Source: a virus
Length of the DNA: 30,194 bases
IMG/VR virus record: IMGVR_UViG_3300029309_000227
Span: 1 to 30,194 of that record
Strand: one strand, 5' to 3'
Part shown: piece after piece, positions 9,516 to 24,997 of the stretch
How the letters are laid out: the number at the start of each line of letters is the position of its first letter
How positions within the stretch are numbered: position 1 is the stretch's first letter
Made by a program: the position numbers and the translations under genes
Notes under the pieces: model-generated
Seen by the model: only the letters and a program-made list of their open reading frames with translations
Databases searched by the model: none
Told to the model about the DNA's origin: nothing

Positions 9516-9524
9516 CAAAGATAC
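9516..9524 (-). promoter_or_regulatory. GTATCTTTG promoter-like box before the acetyltransferase gene
   Basis: The leftward strand reads GTATCTTTG in the 22-nt gap between two genes. It contains TATCTTTG, which fits the Bacteroidota -7 consensus TAnnTTTG. The final G is only 7 nt from the ATG at 9508, so transcription would begin at or next to the start codon. No clear -33 TTG element is seen about 20 nt upstream. The same nine bases occur before three other genes. Confidence 0.55.
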
Positions 9525-9530
9525 TAAAAA

Positions 9531-10880
9531 TTAAGGGAAGCTTTTCATAACTTGAGACTCGATAGCAAAAAGCTCAACTGATAAAGGCCCGTTATGCTGT
9601 AGAGTTGTTAAGCAATAATGACCTAGCAAACCATGTGATTCAGCTAAAGTGTTTTTAAATGCTAATATAAGAGGTGTATTAGTGGTGGGATTTGTAGCGC
9701 CATTTATGGTGCTATCAACTGTAATGCTAGATGTAGATATTGCGGTTATCACACCTGCAAGAGCGGGTGTATTGTCGTATTCATTAACGTAATAAAGGTA
9801 GTCGCCAATGCTAATTATAGAATCAATAGGAACGGAAAAGTTAAATATTCTCGGATTGTCTACATTAAAACCTGTGGTTCTGCCTATACCATTAACAGAT
9901 CTTAGTACAAAATCTTTTAGTTCAGTTGGGGCTTGCGCTGTATTTTTTATAGCCGCATAATACGCTCCTTCTTTTTGTTCAAACCAAGTGCTGTTAACTG
10001 CACCTTGATTGTTCATGTCAGTTAAAAAAGTGCTTGTCCAACTTCCGTTTGATTCTAGTGATATGTTTTTAAACAATTTATTTTCCAAAGGGCTTTCATT
10101 AAATACTGTTGTAATTGTAGCAGGAAATTGTTGGTTGTAAAAATTGTTTCTTGAATTGTTTGTGTTGTGTCTATACAGATTACCGCCAGAAAAAGTATAA
10201 AAGAAATTATTCATTCCTAACATATAATCAGGGTGGTAAGAATAAAAGGATGGCCATCCTTGCGCACCATCACTATAAGTTAGTGTGTATTGATCTGGTA
10301 TGGGGGCGAGTGGGTCGGGCACAGGATTGGTAGGCACTGGTGTGGGTAAAGCTGTAGTCTCAGCTGTAGCTGTTGGCGTTGGTGTAGGAGTTGCTGGCGT
10401 TGGTGTTGGCGGACTAGTAGCAGGAAATGTAAGATCAGGAGTTGCATCTGGTGTAAGCAATCCTTGTAAGCATATTTGCGCACTACCAAAAGTATTTGGT
10501 TGAGCCCCAAACAGAGATGATCTAGTTACAAATGTTAATATTGTGTACTCTCCTGAAACTAAAGAAGAGGGAGGGTTTGAGGGTTGCGTAAAAGCTGTAG
10601 GGTTGCTTTGAGTAGCTTTATTATTTACCCCATACGGATAAAATTTTACTATTTCGTTACCTAAGCTATCAAGTATTACACCAGCTCCTTCAACATATTC
10701 AGGGCCAGTAGTCCATTGAGTTCTTAATTGTGGAGTAGCTGCTGCATTAAAACTTAATGTGCCATTTATATTGATAGTAGCAGTATCGGCTACTTGATAA
10801 ATATTACCGTCATTACCCCTATAAGTGGTAAGACCTCCATCATTTACAAAAACTGGATTTCCGCAATTTCTAAAACTCAT
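9531..10880 (-). CDS. Tail/appendage protein with Pro/Thr-rich linker (449 aa)
   Basis: It appears to have three parts. Residues 1-150 are beta-rich (NPVFVNDGGLTTYRGNDG...). Residues 152-196 are a proline/threonine linker (PTPTPATPTPTPT). Residues about 197-449 contain the segment GWPSFYSYHPDYMLGMNNFF followed by an RNNFYN motif and a KEGAYYA motif. I remember this last domain as part of the long tail protein of marine and crAss-like phages, so its presence in a separate gene is notable. The likely role is a virion appendage involved in host recognition. The linker is a plausible site for sugar attachment, and a glycosyltransferase is encoded immediately upstream. It has a promoter-like box of its own (10898-10906). 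Only two cysteines (C6, C137) lie before the linker. Confidence 0.6.
   Translation of the reverse strand: MSFRNCGNPVFVNDGGLTTYRGNDGNIYQVADTATININGTLSFNAAATPQLRTQWTTGPEYVEGAGVILDSLGNEIVKFYPYGVNNKATQSNPTAFTQPSNPPSSLVSGEYTILTFVTRSSLFGAQPNTFGSAQICLQGLLTPDATPDLTFPATSPPTPTPATPTPTPTATAETTALPTPVPTNPVPDPLAPIPDQYTLTYSDGAQGWPSFYSYHPDYMLGMNNFFYTFSGGNLYRHNTNNSRNNFYNQQFPATITTVFNESPLENKLFKNISLESNGSWTSTFLTDMNNQGAVNSTWFEQKEGAYYAAIKNTAQAPTELKDFVLRSVNGIGRTTGFNVDNPRIFNFSVPIDSIISIGDYLYYVNEYDNTPALAGVITAISTSSITVDSTINGATNPTTNTPLILAFKNTLAESHGLLGHYCLTTLQHNGPLSVELFAIESQVMKSFP
10293..10427 (-). repeat. Degenerate short-period repeat encoding a Pro/Thr linker
   Basis: Within the appendage gene, this stretch codes for alternating proline and threonine (residues 152-196). 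At DNA level it is a run of degenerate 6-nt units of the type GGTGTT/GGCGTT on the plus strand, with locally higher GC than the surroundings. Such runs can gain or lose units by slippage, which would change linker length without breaking the frame when multiples of three are involved. No perfect long repeat is present. Confidence 0.5.
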
Positions 10881-10897
10881 CGTGTTGTATTATTATG

Positions 10898-10906
10898 CAA
10901 ATTTAC
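10898..10906 (-). promoter_or_regulatory. TAnnTTTG promoter-like box before the Pro/Thr-linker gene
   Basis: The leftward strand reads GTAAATTTG, a variant of the GTATCTTTG box that keeps the TAnnTTTG pattern. It lies in the 50-nt gap after the glycosyltransferase stop, 17 nt ahead of the ATG at 10880. The gap is otherwise A/T-rich with no terminator-like hairpin. Confidence 0.45.
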
Positions 10907-10930
10907 AATTTTATTAAGTATGTTATAAAT

Positions 10931-12157
10931 TTACACTTGCAAATACCTTATTATTGGTTCATCCCACCCTTTGGATTCACTGTGAGGATAGACAACATAT
11001 TTATAAGCAGGCATTCCAATGTACTCTCTTACAACTTGAATCAAATGTTTTTTATACCACTTATCCACTTCGTCTTTGTGTACATCTTCTCTATAAATTT
11101 CTTTTCCTTGAGCGTCTTGAAATATTATAGCTACAAAGCTATAGTCATCGTAATTTAACTCAGCTCTATTAAATTCAATTATGTATCTGACTTTTGTCAA
11201 ATATGGAAAGTTATAAGTTCCAGGCAGCTTGTTATCTATGGTAGGTTGTTGTACGGCTCTGTCTTTAAATCTAATACCAATATGACGCTGAAAGTCTTCT
11301 AAAGTAGCCTCTTCTCCAAAACCATACTCTTGTAAATTTTTTTTCACACACTCAGAGCATTGAGCTCCATCAACTCCTAAAAGCATTTTCATTCGATTTA
11401 GAGAGCCTGTGTTTTGTTCAGTCCATTGTTTGTGGTCATCCCAATGTTTTGTTCTACCCTCTCGAGTGTATTCATGCCATGCAATAACTTCATGTGGATG
11501 AAATAAACTATACCCCCATGTAAATGCTCGAGCCGCTATACTTATTTCTTCTCCGTGAAAATAAAGCAAAGGGTCATGCGGAACTTCCTTACAAAACTTT
11601 CCTAGTGTAAAAGCAAAATGAGCAGAGTAAAATCTAGCTGGAAGAGGTTTGTCTGTTAGTTTACTCATGTGATATGGAAGAAAAAACACCACGCCTTCGG
11701 GTGAAAATTTATGAAACGACATACCCCAAGGCATAGTTTGTCTGTCATCTGGGTCATTGTTGGGGTTGTAAGAAGGAAGGTAAGTTGTTATTAATGGTTT
11801 TTGATGACCTATTTTTTTTATAAAATCCATCATCGCAATCAACTTTACATCCCAACCTCTAACAAATCTATGGTGCGAATCAAGTTGTAGGGTGTATTTT
11901 TCCCCATCGTAATGTTGCTGAATTTGATTTCTTGCCCAACAAACACCTAAAGATTCTTTGTGTGGTATATCTATAATAATAAACTTAGAATCTTTTTTGT
12001 ATTTAGTTAATCTATCCCACTTATCTTTTTTAGAATATTGATGAGCTATACATATCTTTAAATTATTAGGGTATTTAGCCTTACTAATTAAGTCATCCAA
12101 AGTTGGTATTAGTTCAGGGTCACGATAGCTTGCTATCTGAACAAAAATAGAATCCAT
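10931..12157 (-). CDS. Gnt1/GT60-like (GlcNAc-type) glycosyltransferase with extra C-terminal domain
   Basis: The N-terminal 250 residues match what I know of the Pfam 'Glycosyltransferase (GlcNAc)' family, whose type member is the Dictyostelium Skp1 GlcNAc-transferase Gnt1 (GT60). Visible motifs are IFVQIASYRDPEL (4-16), SLGVCWARNQIQ (69-80), the metal/nucleotide-sugar motif QLDSHHRF (91-98, D93 and H95 in a DxH), KPLITTYLPSY (120-130), FHGEEISIAAR (200-210) and WHEYTREGRTKHW (227-239). The enzyme would transfer a sugar from a nucleotide donor, and in this family acceptors include proteins. A CSEC motif follows the core. The last roughly 85 residues (YIIEFNRAELNYDDYSFVAI onward) look like a separate beta-rich domain. 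It lies between two appendage genes, one with a Pro/Thr linker, so a virion protein is a plausible acceptor; host-surface sugars are the alternative. It has its own promoter-like box. Confidence 0.85.
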   Translation of the reverse strand: MDSIFVQIASYRDPELIPTLDDLISKAKYPNNLKICIAHQYSKKDKWDRLTKYKKDSKFIIIDIPHKESLGVCWARNQIQQHYDGEKYTLQLDSHHRFVRGWDVKLIAMMDFIKKIGHQKPLITTYLPSYNPNNDPDDRQTMPWGMSFHKFSPEGVVFFLPYHMSKLTDKPLPARFYSAHFAFTLGKFCKEVPHDPLLYFHGEEISIAARAFTWGYSLFHPHEVIAWHEYTREGRTKHWDDHKQWTEQNTGSLNRMKMLLGVDGAQCSECVKKNLQEYGFGEEATLEDFQRHIGIRFKDRAVQQPTIDNKLPGTYNFPYLTKVRYIIEFNRAELNYDDYSFVAIIFQDAQGKEIYREDVHKDEVDKWYKKHLIQVVREYIGMPAYKYVVYPHSESKGWDEPIIRYLQV

Positions 12158-12177
12158 TTAATTTAATTTAATTAAAT

Positions 12178-12186
12178 CAAAGATAC
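12178..12186 (-). promoter_or_regulatory. GTATCTTTG promoter-like box before the glycosyltransferase
   Basis: An exact copy of GTATCTTTG on the leftward strand in the 36-nt gap between an appendage gene and the glycosyltransferase gene, 20 nt before the ATG at 12157. The leader between box and ATG is made of TTTAA units and contains the palindrome TTTAATTAAA, which may be an operator or merely A/T-rich leader. Confidence 0.55.
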
Positions 12187-12193
12187 TATTTAT

Positions 12194-13543
12194 TTAGGTA
12201 CCATAATACCCATAGTTAGTATTAAATGGGTCAACAGCTGGGCCGTAAAGCGATGAGCTACTACAACTGTTACAATCATCATCATCACCTATCCTTGTAA
12301 TACTATAAGCTTGGTTGTATAGCTGAGGGGTTTCAGTTGTTCCCGCTACCACATAACAGGCATTGTCTACAAAATTTCTCCATAAACCAGTTGCTCCATT
12401 AGGGTAGTAACTTACTGGCTGCGGCGAAACCGCTAATGCGCTTGTGTATTGAGAATTGTTGGAGTTATAATACCTAACATCACATCTAACAAATAAAATA
12501 TATGGCTCAGGGCATCCAATAGCATAACCTCTAAAACTAGGGCTGCTTTCAAGCACACCAAAAACATCTATAGCTTGAATACCTGTAAGCTCGCTTTTGC
12601 CAGCAAGTTGAGAGTCATCTATTAATTGTTCAGTTATATAAATGTCTGTGCCATTTGGGCTTACTCTTGTACCAAGGTTATTCAAAGGCTGTGTTGTTCT
12701 AAAATAATAAGTGTTAGTTTGATCAGAGCATTTTCTAAGTTGATATATGTACTCCACAGGCGGAACAACCACAGAGGGACATCCTGTTTCGTTTGTTGGC
12801 ACTACTGTAAGATTTTGTCCAGCTGTAGAGTTTAGAATTAAACTAGAGGACACGGTAGTTTTTATAGGGTTGTTCTCATTTGCAGCAGGGTCAAAAAATC
12901 CAGTATCACTTACACCAGGGTAATCTATAGGGTCTGAAATGCCAAATCTTTGATTATCTGTTGGTTTGTTAGCGTCGGTTGCTTCTATATAGCCGCCAGT
13001 TGTAAAAAACTGATTGTTAGAGCAAGGTGATATAAAATAGAATTTAGTAGGAGGTGTTGTAACAATGTCTTCTAATTCACCAGACAATGTATTAACCACA
13101 GTGTCTCCGCCCACGGGTATATTGCCACTTGGGTTACTAGCAACAAAAGGATTAGAGGTTTTAAATCTTTTAGCTGAATTTATTACAGAAACGCCTATCC
13201 TAAAAAAATACGGCGTGCCCGCAGCCCCAGTTTTAGTAGCTGGTTCAGGAACTCCAGGATCAAATCCTTGTCCAACTAATACATAATCTACATCTCTTGT
13301 ACCTCCTGTTATGTTGTTACTTATATTTTGTGTGACAGTATAAGTAGTCGGTGGAGTCGGTGGAGCGGAACAATTAGCACAAGTCTCTTGAACTTGAAGC
13401 AAACCATTTAGTTGTTGCCTAGATATTGTGTTATTTGAATAATATCCATCGGCAGCCAATGTTTGAAGGGAAACATCTGTATACACAGCAGTAGCATTTT
13501 CTAGTGTTGCCGCGTCTAAATAAAATAGTTGTCTTGTTGCCAT
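12194..13543 (-). CDS. Cys-motif tail/appendage protein (449 aa)
   Basis: A beta-rich, Ser/Thr/Asn-rich virion-type protein. It starts with a module (ATAVYTDVSLQTLAADGYYS) that I recall as a recurring small domain in appendage proteins of marine Bacteroidota phages. This is followed by a CANC pair (C55, C58) and a Pro/Thr linker (SAPPTPPTTY). The middle contains several Pro-rich turns and paired cysteines. The end has DDDDCNSCSSSS (C424, C427) and an aromatic/Gly tail. CxxC pairs suggest metal or disulfide cross-links stabilising an extracellular fibre. It starts 10 nt after the stop of the large tail gene and reads as a continuation of that operon. Host attachment is likely but not proven. 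Confidence 0.55.
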   Translation of the reverse strand: MATRQLFYLDAATLENATAVYTDVSLQTLAADGYYSNNTISRQQLNGLLQVQETCANCSAPPTPPTTYTVTQNISNNITGGTRDVDYVLVGQGFDPGVPEPATKTGAAGTPYFFRIGVSVINSAKRFKTSNPFVASNPSGNIPVGGDTVVNTLSGELEDIVTTPPTKFYFISPCSNNQFFTTGGYIEATDANKPTDNQRFGISDPIDYPGVSDTGFFDPAANENNPIKTTVSSSLILNSTAGQNLTVVPTNETGCPSVVVPPVEYIYQLRKCSDQTNTYYFRTTQPLNNLGTRVSPNGTDIYITEQLIDDSQLAGKSELTGIQAIDVFGVLESSPSFRGYAIGCPEPYILFVRCDVRYYNSNNSQYTSALAVSPQPVSYYPNGATGLWRNFVDNACYVVAGTTETPQLYNQAYSITRIGDDDDCNSCSSSSLYGPAVDPFNTNYGYYGT

Positions 13544-13553
13544 ATGTTATATT

Positions 13554-16500
13554 TTAAGTTGCACATTTTAAGGTTGCTCTCCATTTAGTTCCAGCTAGAG
13601 GCCCATAAACTTTTAATGTTGCTGTTGTGGTTGCTGTGCTTTTGGTAAAACTTACTGTTCCTTTTCCGCCAACAAAAAAAGTTCCATCTCCCGTTGAAGG
13701 TAAAGGCGCGTCAGCAGCACCGGTAGAAGCACCTATGTAAGTGTGCCCAGTATATACACCGTTATTGGGTTCAGTTAAATTATCACTTACTAAAGTTTGA
13801 TTTAATTGGGGGATTTTAGTTCCGTCGCCTCTATATTGAGTGTCAATAACTATAGAGCCATCAAACTCAACTATAAACCTATCGGGTATATCGATGGCCT
13901 CAAACTGAAGAGTTACCGTTCCTGTGCCTGCGCCTAGAGTTATAGTCTGTGTATCAGGATAGCTTTGTCCTCCAGAGTAAGATGCCACTGCCCCACAAGG
14001 AACCACAGGGGAAGGAGCGCTACAATTACAACAAGCGTTTACCGATGAAGTTGTATCTTGACACAAACTCATTGAAGTTGTATTTCTATAATCCCAAATT
14101 AAATATAAATGCTTATCAGTAGAAGTTCCACTAGGCATGGTAAATGTAGCGTAGTTTCTGTCATTATCGGTAACAATAGGTGTTGCGTTGTTGGCAGCAG
14201 CTAACAAAGCATTTATATCTGTTGAGGTGTTTGAATAGACTGTGCTGCTTCTTAAATACATCAATCGATTTGATACTGTATCAAAATCATAATTATCATT
14301 ATTTATTTTGTTACTTATAATCGAAACAAGAGCTCCTTCATCAGGTATAGCGTTTGATCCTAGCGCACCATTAACTGTTAGGTATTGTGATACAATAGGA
14401 TTAGTTGTGCTTGATTGGAAGACAACTTGATTTGATTGCAATGGTGAGCTGGATACATTATCTGTCCACCTGTATTGATTGTGAATTAGTTTAGTTGCAT
14501 CAGAGTTGCTTGTAATTGCAATATTGTATAATGTAATATCAGTTTGAGCAGGACAGCTTACAGTGATTTCAATGTTATCTGAAACTTGGCTAACAGTGGA
14601 AACCTCTATGGTTATTTCTTTTATGTCTGCTATGCTTTTAGGAACAGTAAACGAGCCGCTGATATAAACAATGCCACTAGTGTAAACCACGCCATTGTAA
14701 AAAGCATTTATTACATATCCTGGGCCAGAGCCAGCTGTGCTAGTTGCTTCTGTTACAATCTCTACATCAGCAGTTTCTGTTATTACATTTACAAGACCCG
14801 CTCCGCTTGGAGTGTTTTCTTCAGAAATAATATTATCGCTTTCAGACTCGGGAATAATATAACTTACAGTAACTGTTCCAGTTTCTAATCCTTCATCTAC
14901 ACAAAACACGGTTGCAACCCCAGGATTTACAGCTATGAACTGAGTGGTGTCACAAGGAATACATTCGTTAAATTCAAAAGTATTTTCAGAGTTTGTGGCT
15001 AAAACAAATTCATCTGTATAAGGGTCATAACCTCCTAACTTTTGAGTGGATATAGAGTTAATAAACATATCTCTAAACCACGACCTCATTCCAGCTTTTG
15101 AGATAATTGATAATCTGTCGTTTCCAACATCAGCGCCTGTAATTTTTACAACTGACCCTCTTTTAGAATCTGTAAAAAAAGTGTCTACTCCCCAAGAGGC
15201 AAAGCTTTCAGGGTTATTACTTATACCATATTCCTCAGGTCTAGCTATTTGTTTTCCTAATACAGTAGGCACTGAGGTTAAAGCTCCACCTCCACCCGCA
15301 TCTGTTAAAATATCTTTACCTACTAAGACGTATGATATTCTGTCTTCTTGTAATGTTAGTATGTCATTTCTTCTAGCGTGTAATTTTCTAACTGGGCCAA
15401 ATGAATCTTCCAAAGTTTTAAAATTAGCTAAACCAAGATTAAACTCATTTAGTTTGTTTACATTGGACTCATCATTAAATACACCACTATAAGTTAAATC
15501 AGCAAACCTATGAGCTTGCTTGTATATTTGTGAAGAAGTAGTAAATGTTCTATTACCAAAGTTTAATGTTTTACCATTAACAGAATCTCTTATTTTAAAG
15601 CTCTCAACACCATTTCCAAATGTAATACAGTTGTAAAAACCTGTGTCAATTATTGCGTCTTGTGCTGTATTTAATCCTGCATTTTGAAAGTCAATAATTT
15701 GGTCTTGGCTTGAGCCTGAATGTTGGCCTAGCGCATCGATGCTAAATGATAAATCATTTTCATACCAAACATCTGGCAAAGCATCTAGTGGTTGCGTTTC
15801 AAAAACTATTGTATTGTCTGCTCTTATAACCTCAATGTTAACTTCTAAAGAGCTTCTGCCTCTACCAGCACACCTTCTATCACCAGATATTCCTAAAAAA
15901 GTTTCTCCTGTAGCGTTACCGCCAGTGTCGCTTTTAAAAAATTCAAAATAATAATTTAAATGTTGCTGACTTAAATCAGAAGAGACAGGTTTAGCGGTGC
16001 TTATAGAAGTAGCAGAAGAGCCGCTTTGACTGTACACTATAGTGCCATTATAAGTAGTAGTTGACCCTGATCTGCCTTGAGTAAATGTAGATTTATCTTG
16101 AATTAGCGCTGATATGTTTTCCCCGTCAAAAAATTCTTTAAAATTTGTATAGTCTACAGCAACAAATACTTCCTCCTCAAATTCCCATCTTAAATTTTGG
16201 CATGCCGCAGATGCTCCACCCCCTGACCTATTCATATTGATTGTTATCTTTACTCTACTACCTGTAGGTATAGTGTAATCAATAAAACTAGTTGCCCCTG
16301 AACCTGCTGAGTTGGGAACACTAACTGAATAAAATATTTTAGGAAAATGATTTGTTTTATTCACGGAATTACTTTCTGTTCCTTTAAATACAAAGTTTCC
16401 TCCTGCATCAGTGTTGTTTACTACAGAAAAATTGTTAGGATTAATTTTCATGTAAGTCCCAGAGGGAGCATCTAAATCGGAGCTAGGGTTTAAAGGATCA

Positions 16501-18125
16501 GGAAATGTTATAAAACCCTTGGTTTTAGTTTCTTTCTCTAAAACTGTGGCAATCGTGCAGTTAGTTCTAACTCCATTAGCGTCCGACTTTACAATTAATC
16601 GGTCACCAGCTTGAACTTTATTTGCGTTTTCTCCTTCTAATAAAAAGAAAGCATCATTAGTGTCGTTGGCTTGGAAAAATATATTAGTGTAGATAGTTTC
16701 GTAAAGGTCTCTATCGGGCTTTATACAAAATTTAAATCTTTTTGCCCAAAACGGAGCAATCATAGCTGGCGCTCCCCCTGCTTGTCCACCTGGAATATTA
16801 ACTTGAATTTTATTAATAAACTCAGAACCCGAACAAGGAACTGAAACAGTATTGTTAGGGCTAACTAAAGCGGTAGATGAACGATTAAAATCATCCATGT
16901 AGATTATACCTATTTCATACCCTCTATTGCTATGAAGGCTGTAATTGTTAGATGTTCCTGTATACTGAACGTCTGCTGAGCTAAGCCTATAATATTCATA
17001 AGTTGTATTGGCGCTATCAACAAATTTCATTGCTAACAGCTGTAGACCAATGGTATTTTCAGTTGGATATGCATAGATTTGAAACCCTTCGGCGCCTGCA
17101 CTTATTCCGCTTTCAGTTTTTACAAAAGACCCTAAGTTAGATATTACACAATTAAATTCATCAGTAAAAGTAAAACCATTACAAGAATTGGTTACAGTTT
17201 GTATGCTAGTTGAGCTACCAATTTTTGCCACAAAATCTGCGCTAGTGGCTAAAGTATAAGCGTCGCTAAAGTCTTGTTGTAATATGTAATTAAAACTTAA
17301 TTGAGTAAACGGCGTAGTGCTTGTGGGGGCTACACCTGCTGTAGTTGAAAAAGAGCTGTGTATAAAAGCTATTTCAAAAGAAATCCTAGACCCTTTATTT
17401 AATGCAATTCCTGTCAAATCTATAGTAAGTATAGAGTTATCTACCGATTGCGTTGCTCCGTATGTATAATATCCTTGTCCTATAGTAGATGGCACATCAA
17501 TAAGCTCTACTTCGGCTTGGTCTAATGTTGCGCTATAATTAAAATTTACGGCGTTGTTGAACCGGTCTTTTAAATCATAACCTTCAATATAATTTCCATA
17601 GACAAGCCTATTGCCCATAATTGTTTGAGCTTGTGCTTTTAAAGGCACATTGTCGTATAAACGAAGTATTTCGTTTTCAGGTAAAACGGTAAAGATTTTT
17701 GAGCCATCAAAAACAAGAGTAAAATCATCATTGTTGCCAACTCCTTGGGCAAGCTTATCAACCCTTTCAATTATTTTTATAGTAGGGTCTTGCATTTCTT
17801 TAAACAATATTTCAAATCCCATTACTAAAGAGTCGCCTGTATTAACAGTAACCTCAACGGCATTAAAGTCATTTATCATTCCTTCATTTAAAAAGGAAAC
17901 AGGGGTAAATCCAAAACTAGCGGCTGCAAATGCAGGGTCGCTAAACTGAGAAACTGCCGAGAACTCGCCATTAGCATATTGATATCTGTAAGCAAAACAA
18001 ACAAACCTATCTTCTAAAAAAGTACTTTCGCCTATTGTATTAATTAAGTTTATTGTAGGAGATTCCGATGGTGGTTTTTTAATCACCAAAAGAGACTCTG
18101 CGCTAAACTGATCTATGTACGCCAT
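13554..18125 (-). CDS. Large tail/host-recognition protein, C-terminal portion of a split protein (1523 aa)
   Basis: It reads as the bulk of a long tail protein I remember from uncultured marine phages and crAss-like relatives. Recognisable blocks are DQFSAESLLVIKKPPSESPT near the start, RFVCFAYRYQYANGEFSAVS (about 38-57), FKFCIKPDRDLYETIYTNIF (about 468), SWGVDTFFTDSKRGSVVKI (about 970) and LGGYDPYTDEFVLATN (about 1035). The N-terminal block that normally precedes these (NPPR...) is in the gene just upstream, one base away but in a different frame. A Cys-rich linker (ACCNCSAPSPVVPC, near residue 1365) joins a C-terminal beta domain of about 150 residues that could be the receptor-binding tip. 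The first 18 bases are nearly identical to the start of the 306-residue connector gene. The start is the ATG directly after TAAA; a longer start is impossible because of the stop. Confidence 0.75.
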   Translation of the reverse strand: MAYIDQFSAESLLVIKKPPSESPTINLINTIGESTFLEDRFVCFAYRYQYANGEFSAVSQFSDPAFAAASFGFTPVSFLNEGMINDFNAVEVTVNTGDSLVMGFEILFKEMQDPTIKIIERVDKLAQGVGNNDDFTLVFDGSKIFTVLPENEILRLYDNVPLKAQAQTIMGNRLVYGNYIEGYDLKDRFNNAVNFNYSATLDQAEVELIDVPSTIGQGYYTYGATQSVDNSILTIDLTGIALNKGSRISFEIAFIHSSFSTTAGVAPTSTTPFTQLSFNYILQQDFSDAYTLATSADFVAKIGSSTSIQTVTNSCNGFTFTDEFNCVISNLGSFVKTESGISAGAEGFQIYAYPTENTIGLQLLAMKFVDSANTTYEYYRLSSADVQYTGTSNNYSLHSNRGYEIGIIYMDDFNRSSTALVSPNNTVSVPCSGSEFINKIQVNIPGGQAGGAPAMIAPFWAKRFKFCIKPDRDLYETIYTNIFFQANDTNDAFFLLEGENANKVQAGDRLIVKSDANGVRTNCTIATVLEKETKTKGFITFPDPLNPSSDLDAPSGTYMKINPNNFSVVNNTDAGGNFVFKGTESNSVNKTNHFPKIFYSVSVPNSAGSGATSFIDYTIPTGSRVKITINMNRSGGGASAACQNLRWEFEEEVFVAVDYTNFKEFFDGENISALIQDKSTFTQGRSGSTTTYNGTIVYSQSGSSATSISTAKPVSSDLSQQHLNYYFEFFKSDTGGNATGETFLGISGDRRCAGRGRSSLEVNIEVIRADNTIVFETQPLDALPDVWYENDLSFSIDALGQHSGSSQDQIIDFQNAGLNTAQDAIIDTGFYNCITFGNGVESFKIRDSVNGKTLNFGNRTFTTSSQIYKQAHRFADLTYSGVFNDESNVNKLNEFNLGLANFKTLEDSFGPVRKLHARRNDILTLQEDRISYVLVGKDILTDAGGGGALTSVPTVLGKQIARPEEYGISNNPESFASWGVDTFFTDSKRGSVVKITGADVGNDRLSIISKAGMRSWFRDMFINSISTQKLGGYDPYTDEFVLATNSENTFEFNECIPCDTTQFIAVNPGVATVFCVDEGLETGTVTVSYIIPESESDNIISEENTPSGAGLVNVITETADVEIVTEATSTAGSGPGYVINAFYNGVVYTSGIVYISGSFTVPKSIADIKEITIEVSTVSQVSDNIEITVSCPAQTDITLYNIAITSNSDATKLIHNQYRWTDNVSSSPLQSNQVVFQSSTTNPIVSQYLTVNGALGSNAIPDEGALVSIISNKINNDNYDFDTVSNRLMYLRSSTVYSNTSTDINALLAAANNATPIVTDNDRNYATFTMPSGTSTDKHLYLIWDYRNTTSMSLCQDTTSSVNACCNCSAPSPVVPCGAVASYSGGQSYPDTQTITLGAGTGTVTLQFEAIDIPDRFIVEFDGSIVIDTQYRGDGTKIPQLNQTLVSDNLTEPNNGVYTGHTYIGASTGAADAPLPSTGDGTFFVGGKGTVSFTKSTATTTATLKVYGPLAGTKWRATLKCAT
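18108..18125 (-). repeat. 18-bp start cassette, copy 2 (encodes MAYIDQ)
   Basis: The first 18 coding bases of the 1523-residue tail gene, ATGGCGTACATAGATCAG, differ at one position from the first 18 bases of the 306-residue gene 2 kb upstream in the same operon. The upstream and downstream bases diverge. It could be a short duplication that supplied a start codon to the split gene, or a chance convergence. Confidence 0.5.
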
Positions 18126-18126
18126 T

Positions 18127-19197
18127 TTATAATGTTAATGTATAAGTAACTCCGTTTGTTAAACTTAAACCTATTAAAACCAATGAACCAGTGGCCTCAG
18201 GGTTTTGTGCTGCTCCGCTATCATCTGTAAAAAAAAACTGCGGCATATTGTAGTTGCATGAAAATGTTCCACTGCTTCCATCAGAACCTGTAATAGTTCC
18301 AGATAAAACACCTTGCCCTGGATTACCCGCTCCTGATGCCATAATAATACCTAGGGTGCTTGACCCTGCGCTTGAACCAGATGTTGTAGTCATAAATTGT
18401 GTTAAAGCAAAACCACTAGCATTGTTAACTCCTTGTATTCCATACCCTTTGGTTTGATTTAAAGCGCCAGTGCCTAAAGTGTAACACCCTGTGCCTGGTA
18501 AATTAATCTGAGTTGTTGTAGGTGCAACCCCAGCTCCCATTTCATTTATTGAAGTAGGACAACCTATAGTTGTGCCTTGATGAAAACCTATTTGTTCAGC
18601 GCCTGTACCTGTGGTTTGACCAGCTGTAAAGCTCCAAGCTGTTGTACTAGAAGTGGTTGATGTAGCTGTGTTTGGTTCAGCAAAGGGTTTTTTAGTATTT
18701 ATTACGCGGGGTGGATTAAAATTATCAGTAAAAAAAAGAAGGTCTCCTTCAAGATTAACACCTGTCACTAAAAATTTTGGATTAAAATTTAGCGTTGTGT
18801 TTACTCCAGACCCATCATCAATACTTACAATATGATATACAATATCTGTAGTTAGTGTATTAAAAGATACAATCATGTCTAGTTTACCTGTGTTACCTAA
18901 AGAAAAAGAAGGGTCGTGAACAAACCAATATATTGTTTCGTTAGCGCCATCATCATAGGCTCCTATGCAACGAGCACTGTCGCTTAAATTAACATTTGTA
19001 TTACTAACAGGGTCAAGATAAAACAAACGAGTCAACTGAGTATTACCTTTAGCTTTTTCGATTGAGCCTATCTCTGATTCCTCGGTTGAGCCAAGGCGTA
19101 CATTTAAAGCATCTATATATTCTCCATTAGGAACAAGTCTCTCATCGAGAACTTTGTTCATTCGTCCCTTTACAAAATTTCGTTGAGTTCTAGCCAT
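18127..19197 (-). CDS. N-terminal portion of the split large tail protein plus inserted Gly/Ser/Thr-rich domain (356 aa)
   Basis: Residues 1-172 look like the N-terminus of the large tail protein of related phages: FVKGRMNKVLDERLVPNGEY (8-27), DALNVRLGSTEESEIGSIEKAKGN and TGVNLEGDLLFFTDNFNPPR (145-164). After residue 172 the sequence turns into low-complexity Gly/Ser/Thr-rich strands (SSTTAW, TTTSGSSAGSST, SGTITGSDGSSGTF) and stops at 356. The expected continuation (DQFSAESLLVIKKPP) opens the next gene, 1 nt after this stop and in a shifted frame. The two polypeptides therefore probably assemble together, with the new segment displayed at the break. An intact gene with a sequencing frameshift is unlikely because the inserted segment itself has no counterpart in the family as I recall it. 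Confidence 0.65.
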   Translation of the reverse strand: MARTQRNFVKGRMNKVLDERLVPNGEYIDALNVRLGSTEESEIGSIEKAKGNTQLTRLFYLDPVSNTNVNLSDSARCIGAYDDGANETIYWFVHDPSFSLGNTGKLDMIVSFNTLTTDIVYHIVSIDDGSGVNTTLNFNPKFLVTGVNLEGDLLFFTDNFNPPRVINTKKPFAEPNTATSTTSSTTAWSFTAGQTTGTGAEQIGFHQGTTIGCPTSINEMGAGVAPTTTQINLPGTGCYTLGTGALNQTKGYGIQGVNNASGFALTQFMTTTSGSSAGSSTLGIIMASGAGNPGQGVLSGTITGSDGSSGTFSCNYNMPQFFFTDDSGAAQNPEATGSLVLIGLSLTNGVTYTLTL

Positions 19198-19198
19198 T

Positions 19199-20119
19199 TT
19201 ACTTTATCCACTTATTTTCTCCTCTTAAATTCATTAACAATCTGCTTGGGTGTAAATTACTCATCCTAATTTTGGCGTTTCTAAGCAAAGCTGACTTATC
19301 TTTTCTAGCTCGGTTTACTATATATTCTTGCACCCCAAATTTGTTGTTTAATAATGCGTATTTAATATAAGCGTAAATATACTCTTCGAACATTTTGTTT
19401 ACACTTACACTGTCATCATTACCGTTTTCCATACCATCTGAAATGTACTGAAGTATACATTGTTGATTAGCCATAGTCGAATCAAAATTAATTACACCAG
19501 CTTTTCTGTCAATCGTGAAAGTTGGGTTAAAATTAGCGGTCTCAGTATTTAAGCCATAACGAGCTCCAATACGAGAATTGTAAATATCACTATCAAAATT
19601 ATTAAGTCCTGGATTAGCGTTTTCATCATTTAATTGGTTTAAGTATATACTCTCTAAAGACCCATTAGTTCTTGCTGTATCTAAGCTAGAAGTTTTTGTA
19701 TTTACGTTGTCATCAGAATCATAGGTAAATGATGAACTTCCAGATTGTACAAAAGAAGTCGCTGATTGCACTTGTATGTTTTCAACTAAATCTCTAATTA
19801 CATTATCTCTAAACAAAGAAAGTTTTACCCAATTAACAAAATCAGAAGGCAGAACAAATTTTAAATCATCGTAGACAGTTAACTCTAAAGATTTAATAAT
19901 TTTAAAAGCATCGTAGTTTAATTCTTGTATACCCCTTTTGGCATGAAATAATATTTTATATCGGTTCACATTGTTAACTAAATGATGGTTTCCTTCATAC
20001 ATTAACAAGAAGTTGGTAATCACATCTTTTAAAGTTACATATTGATATGAACCCCAATTTGCATCGTTGGGTGTTGCTCCGTCATTTGTGTAATATTTTT
20101 TCTGATCTATGTATGCCAT
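19199..20119 (-). CDS. Connector / tail-stabilisation protein (306 aa)
   Basis: The block NRYKILFHAKRGIQELNYDA (52-71) followed by KSLELTVYDDLKFVLPSDFVNWVKLSLF is the hallmark, as I remember it, of a structural protein found next to the tail protein in marine phages and in crAss-like phages, where it has been called a tail stabilisation or tubular protein. The C-terminal third (FEEYIYAYIKYALLNNKFGV...) is helical and basic. Placement between the adaptor-like gene and the large tail gene fits a role at the head-tail interface. The start is the ATG 2 nt after the preceding stop. Confidence 0.65.
   Translation of the reverse strand: MAYIDQKKYYTNDGATPNDANWGSYQYVTLKDVITNFLLMYEGNHHLVNNVNRYKILFHAKRGIQELNYDAFKIIKSLELTVYDDLKFVLPSDFVNWVKLSLFRDNVIRDLVENIQVQSATSFVQSGSSSFTYDSDDNVNTKTSSLDTARTNGSLESIYLNQLNDENANPGLNNFDSDIYNSRIGARYGLNTETANFNPTFTIDRKAGVINFDSTMANQQCILQYISDGMENGNDDSVSVNKMFEEYIYAYIKYALLNNKFGVQEYIVNRARKDKSALLRNAKIRMSNLHPSRLLMNLRGENKWIK
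20102..20119 (-). repeat. 18-bp start cassette, copy 1 (encodes MAYIDQ)
   Basis: The first 18 coding bases of the connector gene, ATGGCATACATAGATCAG, match the first 18 of the large tail gene at 17 positions. The only difference is a synonymous third-position A/G. Confidence 0.5.
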
Positions 20120-20121
20120 AA

Positions 20122-20832
20122 TTATTGTTTTTGATCTTGCATTTGTTCTTCTAATTGTCCAAACTTAAACACATCTCCTTCTCTAATTTCTATACCAGCG
20201 TATTGTAATATTTTAGCAACCAAGTTATTGGCGTCATCTCTAGGTAATTCAAAATCTTGATAGTCTGCTTGACTTTGGTCAAATATAGGGTCGCCTGTAC
20301 TTATAACACTAAATGTCCATTTTGGGTCTAAAGGATATCTGATGTATTGAGCTTCAATATCATTTGCTCCGTTAAATGTAGAAGGAAAAATAGTTATTAG
20401 GTTAGCTTGTTGAGTATAAGCTGGGAAATTTACCGATGGCGCTGTAAGCAAAGAGTTGTTAAGTAAAGTGATTTTACTTTGTGAAACGCGCTCTGCTTGA
20501 CCTTTGAATGTTACGCCCGATGAACATAACACTTTATTTATTATATAATAATCCGAGGGTAAAGTATAAATATTTCCTGAGCTCTGTGTAAGCGTAGCGG
20601 TAACCGAAAAAGTATCTATTACTTCTTCGTAACTTTTTTTAATATCAGCATAACCTGTGCCTGACACTCTTGCGTTTTCTTCATTTATTTGCTGATTATA
20701 ATTAGCAAAATATTCGTCAAACAAATCAAGTTGTGCTTGTTTAGCAAACAGATTAAAATCCGCAGGCGATATATATCCGTAATTGTTTTTATTAATAATC
20801 GCTAATACTGTATTTCTTACAGAGTTTATCAT
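20122..20832 (-). CDS. Head-tail adaptor / tail-tubular-A-like protein (236 aa)
   Basis: A 236-residue protein with an N-terminal helical part (SVRNTVLAIINKNNYGYISPADFNLFAKQAQLDLFDEYF), a central strand-rich part (YTLPSDYYIINKVLCSSGV) and a helical, acidic C-terminus ending in EEQMQDQKQ. The pattern 'helices, LPxDYxxI, strands, helices' is common to head-tail adaptor and tail tubular proteins (T7 gp11, P22 gp4 class). The position right after the capsid block and before the tail proteins agrees. Family membership is by layout and impression. It begins a transcription unit: a strong terminator and a GTATCTTTG box lie directly upstream. Confidence 0.55.
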   Translation of the reverse strand: MINSVRNTVLAIINKNNYGYISPADFNLFAKQAQLDLFDEYFANYNQQINEENARVSGTGYADIKKSYEEVIDTFSVTATLTQSSGNIYTLPSDYYIINKVLCSSGVTFKGQAERVSQSKITLLNNSLLTAPSVNFPAYTQQANLITIFPSTFNGANDIEAQYIRYPLDPKWTFSVISTGDPIFDQSQADYQDFELPRDDANNLVAKILQYAGIEIREGDVFKFGQLEEQMQDQKQ

Positions 20833-20848
20833 TACGTTTCAGTTTGTA

Positions 20849-20857
20849 CAAAGATAC
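20849..20857 (-). promoter_or_regulatory. GTATCTTTG promoter-like box starting the connector/tail unit
   Basis: An exact GTATCTTTG on the leftward strand, 16 nt before the ATG of the adaptor gene and directly behind the T-run of a strong terminator. A terminator-promoter pair this tight implies that the connector and tail genes are expressed separately from the small head genes upstream. Confidence 0.6.
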
Positions 20858-20859
20858 GC

Positions 20860-20891
20860 AAAAAAAAAGAGGTCATTGATTTTGACCTCTT
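20860..20891 (-). terminator. Strong rho-independent terminator after the 80-aa gene
   Basis: On the leftward strand a perfect 9-bp stem AAGAGGTCA/TGACCTCTT (20883-20891 pairing with 20867-20875), with a 7-nt loop, runs into nine T residues ending at 20860. It starts 24 nt after the stop of the 80-residue gene. This is the clearest intrinsic terminator in the window apart from the one after the capsid gene. Confidence 0.85.
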
Positions 20892-20915
20892 GTTAGATTA
20901 TCGACTAAACGAGTT

Positions 20916-21158
20916 TTATGAAACCGTTGTTATCGCTTGACTTAAAGTTACGTCAATGGTTGCGTCAGTATAGCCTTGTCCCCAAACACTTACAAGAGCA
21001 GATTCTATAGCCGTTTTGTCTGCGGCGGTCATATTTCCTGAACCTGCTAAAGTCAATTGCTTGTCGAGGTAGTTCAAAACAATATTGTTTGTAACTAACC
21101 CAACGTATAATACATCACCGCCAAAAACATAATTTCCAATTACTAAAAATTTATTCAT
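20916..21158 (-). CDS. Small virion-type protein B (80 aa), possible capsid-associated
   Basis: An 80-residue beta-rich protein beginning MNKFLVIGNYVFGGDVLYVG, with a helical centre (TAADKTAIESALVSVWGQGY) and a closing strand (ATIDVTLSQAITTV). The plan matches the 91-residue gene just upstream: MNK[FY] start, a V[AT]..-strand, an I/V-x-[IL]-x-Y strand, an Ala-rich helix ending in W, and a final strand with L-S-Q. The two look like diverged paralogues. Position after the capsid gene, tiny size, a private promoter and a strong terminator suggest an abundant capsid decoration or cement protein. No family is firmly recognised. Confidence 0.5.
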   Translation of the reverse strand: MNKFLVIGNYVFGGDVLYVGLVTNNIVLNYLDKQLTLAGSGNMTAADKTAIESALVSVWGQGYTDATIDVTLSQAITTVS

Positions 21159-21170
21159 AATTTCTAAGAT

Positions 21171-21446
21171 TTAAAAGGTGAATGTAAAAGCGTTTACCGT
21201 TTGACTCAATGCCGGTATACTATATAATACTTTTGTCCATTTCTGTTGTTGAGCACTTTTGATAACATCGAATACGATGTCTACGTCTGCTTGTACTAAA
21301 GCCGAGCCTGACGCAATTTTACTTTGAGAGCCATTACTGTAATCAATAACAATATCATCTGCGCTATCTAAATAGCAAGACGCTACATCTTTTACAGAGA
21401 ACTGCTCTACTCCACCTCCAACGGTGATACTTGCATATTTGTTCAT
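21171..21446 (-). CDS. Small virion-type protein A (91 aa), possible capsid-associated
   Basis: A 91-residue beta-rich protein (MNKYASITVGGGVEQFSVKD) with an Ala/Val-rich helix (ALVQADVDIVFDVIKSAQQQ), W75 and a terminal aromatic strand (NAFTFTF). I have an impression of similar small proteins behind capsid genes of marine phages but cannot name the family. It forms a two-gene unit with the 80-residue gene 12 nt downstream, and a GTATCTTTG box lies 27 nt upstream of its ATG. Role inferred from context only. Confidence 0.5.
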   Translation of the reverse strand: MNKYASITVGGGVEQFSVKDVASCYLDSADDIVIDYSNGSQSKIASGSALVQADVDIVFDVIKSAQQQKWTKVLYSIPALSQTVNAFTFTF

Positions 21447-21473
21447 AATAAAAAAATTTATGTGTTAAAAAAA

Positions 21474-21482
21474 CAAAGATAC
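21474..21482 (-). promoter_or_regulatory. GTATCTTTG promoter-like box before the small paired genes
   Basis: An exact GTATCTTTG on the leftward strand, in the 45-nt gap after the 247-residue gene, followed by seven T residues and an A/T-rich leader of 27 nt to the ATG at 21446. The two small genes are bracketed by this box and the terminator at 20860-20891, making a compact independent unit. Confidence 0.6.
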
Positions 21483-21491
21483 AACATTTTA

Positions 21492-22235
21492 CTATGCGTT
21501 TTTAGCTAGTGATTTAAGGTGTTTGTATAATTCTATACCATCATCACTTTCAAAAAATGAAGCCGCCATATACAAAGGGTCTTCTCCGTAAGGAACATTT
21601 GTAAGTTTCTTTTTATTAGAAGCTGTATTAAACCATATTTCTTTTCCTTGATTTCTAAGACTTAAAAGCTTTTTATCAAAAAAAGATTGAATGGTGGCAT
21701 TCATTTTTAAAGTAGGGTCTTTAAGCAAATTCAAAAAGTCTTCGGGTTGGTTTTTAGCCAATACTAATATTTCTCTTTTCAATTCCTCTAAAGAAGTTTT
21801 CCTTGGGTCTTTTTGAAAAAGCACACGAGTCATGTTTTCTATTTGCTCTACACTTAAGTTTCTAGCTTCAATTAGCGCATCTACTTGTAGGTCTAATTGT
21901 TTGTTTTTCTCAGCCGCATCTTTTTCTTTATTAATCTCAACAAAGACTTTACCATTAGCTGGGTGTATAGCTAAGAACTGTTGAAGCATTGTGTTTTCTT
22001 TTGGAACATTTAAAAAACCATCAGAAAACCAAATATGCTCTCTAACTATTTGTCCATCTTGCTCGTCTACAAAAATTGATTTTTGATTAGGTGAGTACCT
22101 AATAGGTCTGTTCACACCTTTTTTTTCATCCCAATAAAGCATTGGTCTTTTTCCTTGCCCTTGGTCAATTCGATATTGTAAAGGGGCTTTATCTCTCGTA
22201 AGTTTATACGATCTGTCTTTTACTTGTAATTTCAT
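21492..22235 (-). CDS. Head-region protein of unknown function (247 aa)
   Basis: A Lys/Leu-rich 247-residue protein. The N-terminal 90 residues are strand-rich (RSYKLTRDKAPLQYRIDQGQ, RPMLYWDEKKGVNRPIRYSP). A helical, charged middle follows (NKEKDAAEKNKQLDLQVDAL), and the end is mixed (WFNTASNKKKLTNVPYGEDPLY). No catalytic motif is visible. It lies directly downstream of the capsid gene but beyond a strong terminator, and no TAnnTTTG box was found in the 64-nt gap, so it probably depends on terminator read-through. It may be a head-completion or minor structural protein; this is position-based only. Confidence 0.45.
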   Translation of the reverse strand: MKLQVKDRSYKLTRDKAPLQYRIDQGQGKRPMLYWDEKKGVNRPIRYSPNQKSIFVDEQDGQIVREHIWFSDGFLNVPKENTMLQQFLAIHPANGKVFVEINKEKDAAEKNKQLDLQVDALIEARNLSVEQIENMTRVLFQKDPRKTSLEELKREILVLAKNQPEDFLNLLKDPTLKMNATIQSFFDKKLLSLRNQGKEIWFNTASNKKKLTNVPYGEDPLYMAASFFESDDGIELYKHLKSLAKNA

Positions 22236-22253
22236 TTGATTCGATTTAAATTT

Positions 22254-22288
22254 TAAAAAATAAGAGAAGGGGATTTCTCCCCCTCTCT
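22254..22288 (-). terminator. Strong rho-independent terminator after the major capsid gene
   Basis: On the leftward strand an 11-bp stem (one G-U pair) spanning 22288-22263 closes on a GAAA tetraloop and is followed by TTATTTTTT (to 22254). The 5' arm begins AGAGAGGGGG and the 3' arm is CCCCTTCTCT. It lies 11 nt after the capsid stop. The opposite strand lacks a T-run, so it works in one direction only. Confidence 0.88.
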
Positions 22289-22299
22289 GTAATTAAATA

Positions 22300-23766
22300 T
22301 TATTCTTGAAATAAGAAGAAGTTGTTCGCACCCATTGTACAAACAGCTCTCTCAGATAAGAAATTAACTTGCATATTATCTATGTCTGTAGTAGCAGCAC
22401 CACCAGCAGATCCAGTAATCCAAGTTTTGTAACGCCTATCTTCAGTTTCAGAAGCTCTATAACGTACATGTAAGAATGGTCTTTTAGCATTTTTACCAAG
22501 AATTTGGTCATAAACACTAGTTGAACCAGCAGGAACCAATAGACCGTTGATACGACCTGATCCAGCTCCAGTTGGTAAACCACCTCTCATTGTAGGATCG
22601 TTTAGATATTTCCAATCTGTTTTATAGAAGTCATAACCTCTTCTAAATCCAGAGAATCCTAGATTTAAAGCCATTTCTTCGTCATTGTCAAATAGACCAT
22701 AAGAAGTACCGCCAGACCCATAAGAGTTTTGTGCAGCTAACATATCATCGATATCAAACGTAAACTGTCTGTCAATAAACAATACGTTTTCCTCGATAGC
22801 TCCTTGCTTGTCTAATCTACTAATGATTGCGTCGAAATCTGATAATGTTGTAGGGTTACCTCCATCCCAAATGTTTCCTCTTTGAGAAACTGAATAGAAG
22901 ATACCGTCAGAACCAGCACCTGGATTAGCAGCAGCACCTGAACTACCTAAAGCGGCAGCAGCACCAGAGTTAGTCTCTGCAGGTACAGCTTCAATCATTG
23001 CTGTTTCTAGATAATCATCAAATCTTAATCTTGTTTCATGCTCAGATTTTAGATACCACAGATATCCAGTCGCTCCATCTTCAGTAGTAATTTCTACCCA
23101 TCCGATTTGCGCCATATCAGAACCAGACACTGTATAAGTATCTTTGATAATGATTGGTTTGTTTTCGAATATGAAGTCGTTAGACTCTAAAGAACCGACC
23201 ATTCCAGCAGTTCCTTTTCTAAATTCTGATCCATAAATAAACACAGTAAGGTTAGTGTCTGTAGCGGCAGCTGTACCACCTGTGTTTCCAACATATCCAC
23301 CTGCTTCATAAAAAGCAACTGTAAACTCACCTCTACCGCCACCCGCGTTATTTACTGCGGTTACAACAGCTTTGTTTAAACCTGAGCCATCGTTTTGTAC
23401 AATAACTACAGTTTGACCAACTCTTACTACTTGTTCAGCAGCAGTAGGGTCTAAAGTGTCGTTTACTCTGAATGTTCCTGTATCAGCTGCATTAGCTGCC
23501 CCTGAACCAACAGATGTATATTTAGTGTGTAATCTACCTTGCTCTGCCCATTTAATAAGGTCAGAGTTAGTAGGCATCTCTGCTCCTACCATTCTTAGGA
23601 AGGATGAGATAGTTCTATTCCCATAACGCTCAAACTCCTTTTCATAAGTATCAGGAAGATACTGATTTAAAAAGTCGAAATTCGTTATGTAGTTTTCAGT
23701 TGACGGAGTTCTTTCTGAACTCGGTGTCAACGCAAAACTAGGTACGGATTTTACTTGTCCTGGCAT
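22300..23766 (-). CDS. Major capsid protein (488 aa)
   Basis: The sequence agrees closely with my memory of the capsid family of marine Bacteroidota phages and related crAss-like phages: N-terminal ENYITNFDFLNQYLPDTYEK, FERYGNRTISSFLRMVGAEM, then GRLHTKYTSV; a central FIYGSEFRKGTAGMVGSLES block, IGWVEITTEDGATGYLWYLK, GAIEENVLFIDRQFTFDID, MALNLGFSGFRRGYDFYKTD and the C-terminal KRPFLHVRYRASETEDRRYK. About 488 residues is typical. The Ala/Gly-rich stretch near 265-285 (AAAALGSSGAAANPGAGS) may be a surface loop insertion. It follows the scaffold-like gene by 18 nt and is followed by a strong terminator, the arrangement seen around T7 gene 10. The ATG has no Shine-Dalgarno sequence, only an A/T-rich leader. 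Confidence 0.85.
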   Translation of the reverse strand: MPGQVKSVPSFALTPSSERTPSTENYITNFDFLNQYLPDTYEKEFERYGNRTISSFLRMVGAEMPTNSDLIKWAEQGRLHTKYTSVGSGAANAADTGTFRVNDTLDPTAAEQVVRVGQTVVIVQNDGSGLNKAVVTAVNNAGGGRGEFTVAFYEAGGYVGNTGGTAAATDTNLTVFIYGSEFRKGTAGMVGSLESNDFIFENKPIIIKDTYTVSGSDMAQIGWVEITTEDGATGYLWYLKSEHETRLRFDDYLETAMIEAVPAETNSGAAAALGSSGAAANPGAGSDGIFYSVSQRGNIWDGGNPTTLSDFDAIISRLDKQGAIEENVLFIDRQFTFDIDDMLAAQNSYGSGGTSYGLFDNDEEMALNLGFSGFRRGYDFYKTDWKYLNDPTMRGGLPTGAGSGRINGLLVPAGSTSVYDQILGKNAKRPFLHVRYRASETEDRRYKTWITGSAGGAATTDIDNMQVNFLSERAVCTMGANNFFLFQE

Positions 23767-23784
23767 AATTTTTATATTTTATAT

Positions 23785-24951
23785 TTAACTTTTTTTAATA
23801 CTTTTTATTCTTAATCCTCGGCTCGATGGCTGAGATAGTGCTTTAACCTGAAGTCCGCCTTTACTAACAGCTTGCGGTGCGCTTCTTTCTGTCATATCAA
23901 TATTTTTAGTTTTACGCATCACAGTGTCTGTTGCTTGAGACTGACCTTGCTCATAAAAAAATCGAGCAAACTTTTCAGGATTCATAGCAATCGCTAATGA
24001 CCTATGATAACCCTCAGCATCTACTAAAAGCCCTTGATCATCCAAAAATTTATTCACAAAATTCATTGGAGTTTCTTGCGCTTTTTTTAATTCTGATACG
24101 CTACCCGGAGTGTAAACTAGTTCTGTTTCGTCTATCTTGAATTTAAAACCTTTAAAATCAGGATTAAAAAGCTCATTGCTTTTTTGGACAAACCATTGAC
24201 TTCGTTTTACAGACTCCTCTTGTTGAGTCTTAGCATCATTTAAATATTGCCTATAAGCTTGAAGCTCTTCTGAAGCAGTGCCAGAACTTTCCCTTGACTC
24301 AAGAGGCTGTTTGTACAGCTCCTGCTGTTGTCTAAAGAACTTTTTAGCTTTAGCAATTTCTTTTTTCTTTGCTAGTTTGAGTTTTTTTATTTGTGCTGGT
24401 TCATCAACCTCTTCATCAAATTTAAAATCATCCATCATCATCTCGATGTCTTCTGAATCTAAACCTTCTTCAGTAATAGCATAATACTCTCTTAGCAAAG
24501 AGTCAGGATTCATATCGGAATAGTCTCTTTGTAGTTTTACATAGTCGTTAATTCCTCTTCCTGTTTCTTTTTTATACTTAAAGTAAGCAGCGACATCTTT
24601 TGGTAACTCTTCGCTTTTTTCTCTTTCAGCTAAAAGTTCATCAAATGAAGTTATTTGCTTACCATATCTTTGTTCAATATATGAAAGAACCTGAGTGTCA
24701 TCTAGCTCGGGTGGCTTCACCTCAGCTTGAATCTCCTCCTCTTTAATTTTTTCTTCTTCAGCAACTGGCTCACTCGCTGGTTGCTCAATGTTTTTTTTTG
24801 GCTTTTCTTCAGCCGCAGCTTCTTTAACCTCTACAGTTGAGTCAGCTTCAGACTCTTGTGTTTCTTGCTCGTGTTTATCAAGCAGTTCTTTTTCTATTTG
24901 TTGAGTTGACTTGCTTTCTAGCTCAGTCATCTCGCGTACTTTTAATTCCAT
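23785..24951 (-). CDS. Scaffold-like acidic head-assembly protein (388 aa)
   Basis: The first 95 residues are extremely Glu-rich low complexity (EEKIKEEEIQAEVKPPELDD). A helical, charged middle follows (YIEQRYGKQITSFDELLAER, FRQQQELYKQPLE), then a more ordered C-terminus ending in basic residues (SRGLRIKSIKKS). An acidic coiled-coil body with a basic C-terminal tail placed between portal and capsid genes is the usual picture of a phage scaffold, whose basic end touches the capsid protein. No protease motif is visible. A TAACTTTG box lies 15 nt upstream of its ATG, so scaffold and capsid may form their own transcript ending at 22254. Confidence 0.65.
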   Translation of the reverse strand: MELKVREMTELESKSTQQIEKELLDKHEQETQESEADSTVEVKEAAAEEKPKKNIEQPASEPVAEEEKIKEEEIQAEVKPPELDDTQVLSYIEQRYGKQITSFDELLAEREKSEELPKDVAAYFKYKKETGRGINDYVKLQRDYSDMNPDSLLREYYAITEEGLDSEDIEMMMDDFKFDEEVDEPAQIKKLKLAKKKEIAKAKKFFRQQQELYKQPLESRESSGTASEELQAYRQYLNDAKTQQEESVKRSQWFVQKSNELFNPDFKGFKFKIDETELVYTPGSVSELKKAQETPMNFVNKFLDDQGLLVDAEGYHRSLAIAMNPEKFARFFYEQGQSQATDTVMRKTKNIDMTERSAPQAVSKGGLQVKALSQPSSRGLRIKSIKKS

Positions 24952-24966
24952 TAGATTTAATTTTTA

Positions 24967-24974
24967 CAAAGTTA
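24967..24974 (-). promoter_or_regulatory. TAACTTTG promoter-like box before the scaffold-capsid unit
   Basis: The leftward strand reads TAACTTTG, matching TAnnTTTG, in the 46-nt gap after the portal stop and 15 nt before the scaffold ATG. It differs from the GTATCTTTG copies in the two free positions and the preceding base. Confidence 0.5.
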
Positions 24975-24997
24975 AACAAAATTTAAACACACTTTTT

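Follow-up and report, generated by a model that had tools for sequence, protein, structure and literature searches.

Late genes of a podovirus-like Bacteroidota phage and its relatives are probably transcribed from host-type -7 elements that lack the -33 TTG

The leftward late genes of the phage analysed here are separated at several points by short gaps that carry a repeated box, which raises the question of whether these boxes are promoters and, if so, which RNA polymerase reads them and how they are timed. The window (the whole analysed stretch of 30,194 nucleotides, IMG/VR record IMGVR_UViG_3300029309_000227) covers the late half of a podovirus-like Bacteroidota phage, and G001, a 45.8-kb contig of the same phage (98.8% identical), continues it into an oppositely oriented early arm. 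Four exact copies of GTATCTTTG and two TAnnTTTG variants are found among the late genes. All six lie in intergenic gaps in the sense orientation, 7-27 nt from an ATG, at the coordinates that a sequence-only reading of this DNA had listed.

From right to left along the minus strand, which carries all six boxes and the genes that follow them, the first box is the variant TAACTTTG (24967-24974), 15 nt from the ATG of a 388-aa gene (23785-24951; phrog_16786, unknown function). Because this gene lies between the portal and capsid genes, its product is a putative scaffold, and the box is the predicted promoter of a unit comprising this gene and that of the major capsid-type virion protein (22300-23766; phrog_13704). 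An exact copy of GTATCTTTG at 21474-21482 is found 27 nt from the ATG of a pair of small genes (21171-21446 and 20916-21158), while the copy at 20849-20857 lies 16 nt from the ATG of the connector/tail unit (20122-20832 onward). A third copy (12178-12186) is 20 nt from the start of a gene assigned by PHROGs as a glycosyltransferase (10931-12157). The second variant, GTAAATTTG (10898-10906), precedes a 449-aa linker/appendage gene (9531-10880) by 17 nt, and the last exact copy (9516-9524) is only 7 nt from the ATG of a 136-aa acetyltransferase-like gene (9098-9508) followed by the ejection genes.

Counts across the entire window show no enrichment of the nine-mer with one mismatch (11 found, 10.3 expected) or of TAnnTTTG (51 against 45), so it is placement alone that gives the boxes their significance. 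In the gaps of at least 9 nt (386 nt in total) there are six sense and no antisense TAnnTTTG sequences, where shuffled sequences contain a mean of 0.40 and none of 3000 shuffles reached six; a nine-mer common to at least four gaps arose in one of 3000 shuffles. One additional exact nine-mer, absent from the sequence-only reading, is located on the plus strand at 23138-23146, antisense within the capsid gene. In G001, too, the exact nine-mer occurs at the four late sites and as this one antisense coding copy only. A scan for promoters of the sigma-70 type in the window gave no more matches than shuffled sequences did.

The motif search in relatives that had been proposed as a check gave a similar pattern. 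The relatives compared were the complete genome MW202828 (portal 76% identical), Maribacter phage Panino, the Flavobacterium elemo phages, Cellulophaga phages phi38:1 (Pervagoviridae) and phi13:2 (Pachyviridae) and hundreds of IMG/VR contigs. The sense-strand density of TAnnTTTG in the late gaps of 17 contigs is 7.3/kb, compared with 0.7/kb antisense and 0.83/kb (sense) in late coding sequence; in early gaps the densities are 2.8/kb and 0.4/kb, respectively. GTATCTTTG was found 21 times in sense and never in antisense in the late gaps of these contigs. When all 8-mers with two wildcards were ranked without prior choice of a motif, TA..TTTG came first, with 68 of 149 late gaps against 4 antisense and 9 shuffled.

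Conservation was also assessed gene by gene using non-redundant upstream regions of the relatives. A box precedes the scaffold-position gene in 35/38 relatives, the first tail gene in 25/25 (22 with TATCTTTG), the linker gene in 16/22 and the small gene in 18/35, and the acetyltransferase-position gene has one in 11/13 (each time TATCTTTG, usually 4-7 nt from the ATG). No box was found in relatives ahead of the capsid (0/42), large tail (0/27) or GroES-like (0/18) genes, and the terminase gene has one in 2/38. The same late promoter class is seen in MW202828, elemoF, phi38:1, phi13:2 and Panino, among them cultured phages of Flavobacterium, Maribacter and Cellulophaga. It is extremely improbable that the boxes are chance matches or translational signals instead of promoters. 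The lack of a motif excess over the whole window would fit such an explanation, but their specificity for strand and gap, their conservation at particular genes and the fusion of terminators to boxes argue against it. Placement and conservation agree with the earlier proposal of Bacteroidota-type -7 elements, each marking a late unit with a promoter of its own. In a group of flavobacteria-infecting viruses, the late (virion) promoters very likely have this box as their core.

Two intrinsic terminators that had been reported on the minus strand were recovered. One (22288-22263) is 3' of the major capsid gene, with no box after it; the other (20891-20867) closes the unit upstream of the connector/tail genes, and its T-tract extends up to the box at 20849, which thus begins immediately past the terminator. 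Hairpins are also visible in relatives at the position of the capsid terminator. Ahead of the first tail gene a terminator is fused to the box in 23/25 relatives, and in these 23 the terminator stems have 22 different sequences. The boxes and conserved terminators would cut the late arm into short, separately promoted units, predicted to be scaffold-capsid, small pair, connector-tail, glycosyltransferase, linker appendage and acetyltransferase-ejection. Since boxes are kept before the genes that begin units and are absent before internal ones, the boundaries of this map, which is that of the sequence-only reading, appear to be largely conserved across relatives. The map does not account for a 247-aa gene (21492-22235, minus strand) that lies behind the capsid terminator and is boxless in the window's clade; a box precedes it in 2/39 relatives, and MW202828 and elemoF have both a terminator and a box at this place (window 22236-22299). 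As it sits behind a terminator without a box of its own, this gene is probably expressed through read-through. The spacing of only 7 nt between box and ATG at the acetyltransferase-like gene (4-7 nt in most relatives) predicts a near-leaderless late mRNA.

Which polymerase would read the boxes is suggested by the -7 element itself. Promoters recognized by sigma-ABfr consist of a -33 TTTG and a -7 TAnnTTTG (refined to TAHHTTTG), and the late sites match all six conserved -7 positions. They also resemble these promoters in having almost no G at the two variable positions (1 of 97 late sites among the types listed; approximately 2% at either position in 129 non-redundant late sites), an AT-rich spacer and a location just 5' of genes. 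In contrast, they have no -33 TTG, contain only A/T from -22 to -17 and often have G at -13. From the -7 sequence we infer that host RNA polymerase carrying the housekeeping sigma factor (sigma-ABfr type) recognizes the boxes as the -7 elements of late promoters, a reading in which we have high confidence. This polymerase would use the -7 core at the late units without the usual second element.

Recognition of the boxes by a sigma factor or RNA polymerase of phage origin is very improbable. The strict core, with four exact nine-mers in the window, could be taken as a sign of such a protein, but all six conserved -7 positions coincide with those of the host sigma factor. Furthermore, no protein in 20 genomes scored above the cut-off of a sigma-family model (TIGR02937) that matched 14/14 controls. 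The model for T7-type polymerases (PF00940) gave no match, with its control unmatched as well, and for a virion RNA polymerase a Pfam and PHROGs scan of one protein, the 1876-aa ejection protein of the relative G002, identified no polymerase domain. Transcription of late genes by host polymerase has also been proposed for Crassvirales (PMC10136315), but their early genes are transcribed by a virion RNA polymerase, whereas the early genes discussed here have host-type promoters. The large-terminase protein weakly resembles those of crAss-like phages.

The sequence-only reading had noted that no -33 TTG box was evident and that the GTATC part of the box was stricter than the Bacteroidota consensus. 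The comparison of the two classes used 147 late and 86 early sites located no more than 150 nt from a start codon, with near-duplicates removed and with genes taken from a simple ORF caller. A TTG 23 nt ahead of the box (approximately -35) is present in 0/147 late and 35/86 early sites (p = 3e-18), where late and early are labels based on genome arm and gene function and not on timing data. The lack of this element is hence both real and specific to late sites, and it persists when one site is counted per ortholog group (0% late, 53% early; median p = 2e-6). With the same weighting, a GC-free stretch from -22 to -17 is found in 36% of early and 78% of late sites, A at -33 in 17% and 57% and G at -13 in 21% and 57%, respectively; the last two weaken as late-class features once each ortholog group counts once. 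The greater strictness survives as a preference only. About half of the late sites in relatives have G at -13 and about a third have TC at the nn positions, and C at -9, which had been part of the same claim, shows no difference between late and early sites when one site is taken per ortholog group.

Promoter identity and the division into two classes are both read from sequence, and on these terms the late sites form a distinct class, defined by TAHHTTTG without a -33 TTG, with only A/T from -22 to -17 and often with G at -13. The early promoters of the same phages, unlike the late ones, carry TTTG(G) at a fixed distance and correspond to the full two-part sigma-ABfr promoter. Panino has both classes on one strand, where they are divided by gene function: TTTGG is found at -23 for groEL and other non-structural genes but not for structural genes. 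The Panino groEL promoter is accordingly of the early type (TTG at -23), although groEL and the late genes share a strand. GroEL and GroES-like proteins are encoded by MW202828 (L081/L082), Panino (L291/L292), elemoF (L287) and G002. In sigma-70 extended -10 promoters, base contacts just upstream of the core can replace the distal element. The late sites have TTnG before TAHHTTTG and belong with a different sigma family, so that this comparison is an analogy only; the frequent G at -13 and the A/T-only stretch may nevertheless compensate for the absent -33 contact. An A-tract at -33 was considered as an upstream activator site and rejected, being strong in raw counts and weak per gene group. 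Part of the late A at -33 stems from terminator loops or conserved coding sequence.

Two explanations were weighed for how a host-read promoter class would be confined to late genes. One treats the late boxes as constitutive promoters of the ordinary flavobacterial kind that work without any phage factor; late timing would come solely from template copy number once replication has taken place, and early promoters would simply be stronger thanks to their -33 box. We regard this as a serious alternative, if a little short of evenly balanced. Promoters of F. johnsoniae have TAHHTTTG with a transcription start 4-5 nt downstream, an AT-rich spacer and a weak -33 element that is hardly evident (PMC6847099), while in B. 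thetaiotaomicron both elements are evident (PMC7366714). As the F. johnsoniae -33 element is itself barely evident, the missing late -33 does not alone require a phage factor. Against purely constitutive use, late phage sites differ from Flavobacteriia host gap sites in A at -33 (74% against 20%), in the GC-free stretch from -22 to -17 (86% against 33%) and in being G/C-richer at -29/-28, a comparison that is soft given that the host gap sample includes many non-promoter matches. The host loci were fetched using an RpoD query that is supported by 98% identity matches only.

The other explanation invokes a dedicated late factor, a phage DNA-binding protein that would recruit host polymerase to the -33-less late promoters or retarget it there; it is an extension of the host-polymerase reading and not its opposite. 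T4 middle promoters (MotA/AsiA) and Mu late promoters (C protein) likewise keep a host core element, have a poor distal one and rely on a phage factor; here the factor is a candidate only and its binding site is putative. A phage-specific late factor had been suggested from the strictness of the box and the missing -33 TTG. No sigma-family protein scored above the cut-off in the 20 genomes, as described above, and the candidate that did emerge is a MarR-like protein of approximately 130-230 aa (phrog_17028, unknown function). It is the sole non-structural, non-chaperone G002 family present in all of MW202828, elemoF, phi38:1, phi13:2, Panino, G006 and G014. Its gene was found in one copy in 23/23 near-complete genomes and was missing only from the fragments G000 and G001; it is expected in the window's own phage, as G001 stops short of the region. 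DnaA-like HTH proteins were rejected as late factors, being missing from some of the genomes compared.

A structural model of the MarR-like protein (pLDDT 70) reproduces the MarR helix order and wing. The best Foldseek matches were AbfR, TcaR and MarR (E-values of 6e-4 to 2e-3, TM-score about 0.45), and a family profile compared with the PDB returned MarR/SarA/Rot structures first, with marginal E-values of 0.007-0.5. With moderate confidence, then, the candidate is predicted to have a MarR-type winged-helix fold. Its gene is also divergent from a box-bearing neighbour in the window's clade. At L384, L387, L396 and L397, back-to-back boxes (TATCTTTG, a few bases, CAAAGATA) are found 5' of the MarR-like gene, where they serve it and its divergent neighbour and make a palindrome; the corresponding site in MW202828 is TGTCACAAA...TTTGTGACA.

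Universal presence together with the predicted fold makes this protein the best candidate for late timing, while universality in itself is no evidence for such a role. Timing of the late class by a phage product, for which the MarR-like protein is the best candidate, is a tentative hypothesis, and direct recruitment or retargeting of host polymerase by such a protein is an equally tentative one. In their favour are a late class lacking the -33 contact that the same phages' early promoters possess, the single copy of the gene in every near-complete genome, the resemblance of model and profile to MarR/AbfR/TcaR and SarA/Rot and the position of the gene opposite a box-bearing neighbour. Conversely, most MarR proteins, which bind palindromic operators as dimers, act as repressors, no upstream operator shared by every late promoter group was found, A at -33 drops to 57% per group, the structural model is of moderate confidence and, as F. 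johnsoniae promoters are likewise without an evident -33 (PMC6847099), a helper is not strictly required. The broader proposal that Pervagoviridae, Pachyviridae, Elemovirus and the window's marine clade share a -33-free late class and a MarR-like protein that switches host polymerase from early to late genes is speculative and somewhat doubtful.

No description of late promoters in Bacteroidota phages was found in the open-access literature, and how these phages time gene expression through a host polymerase of unusual promoter specificity appears to be little studied. The promoter map described here is conserved over several genera, including cultured phages with cultured hosts, and early promoters can be told from late ones by sequence. 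It would allow better prediction of gene units in many uncultured marine relatives, and the analysis provides one named protein for deletion or purification.

Two further features were observed near start codons. A copy of TAACTTTG at window 27474-27481 (minus strand) lies within the end of the terminase gene, 40 nt ahead of the portal ATG; TAHHTTTG is kept 40-52 nt ahead of the portal ATG in 11/15 relatives, and this box may be a portal promoter or merely conserved coding sequence. The leaders that separate box from ATG often have an A/T repeat, for example TTAAATCTAAT or AATTAAATTAAA, directly 5' of the start codon (window 12158-12193, 24952-24997 and 22236-22299, as well as relatives). This repeat may be a signal for translation in a phylum that has no Shine-Dalgarno sequences.
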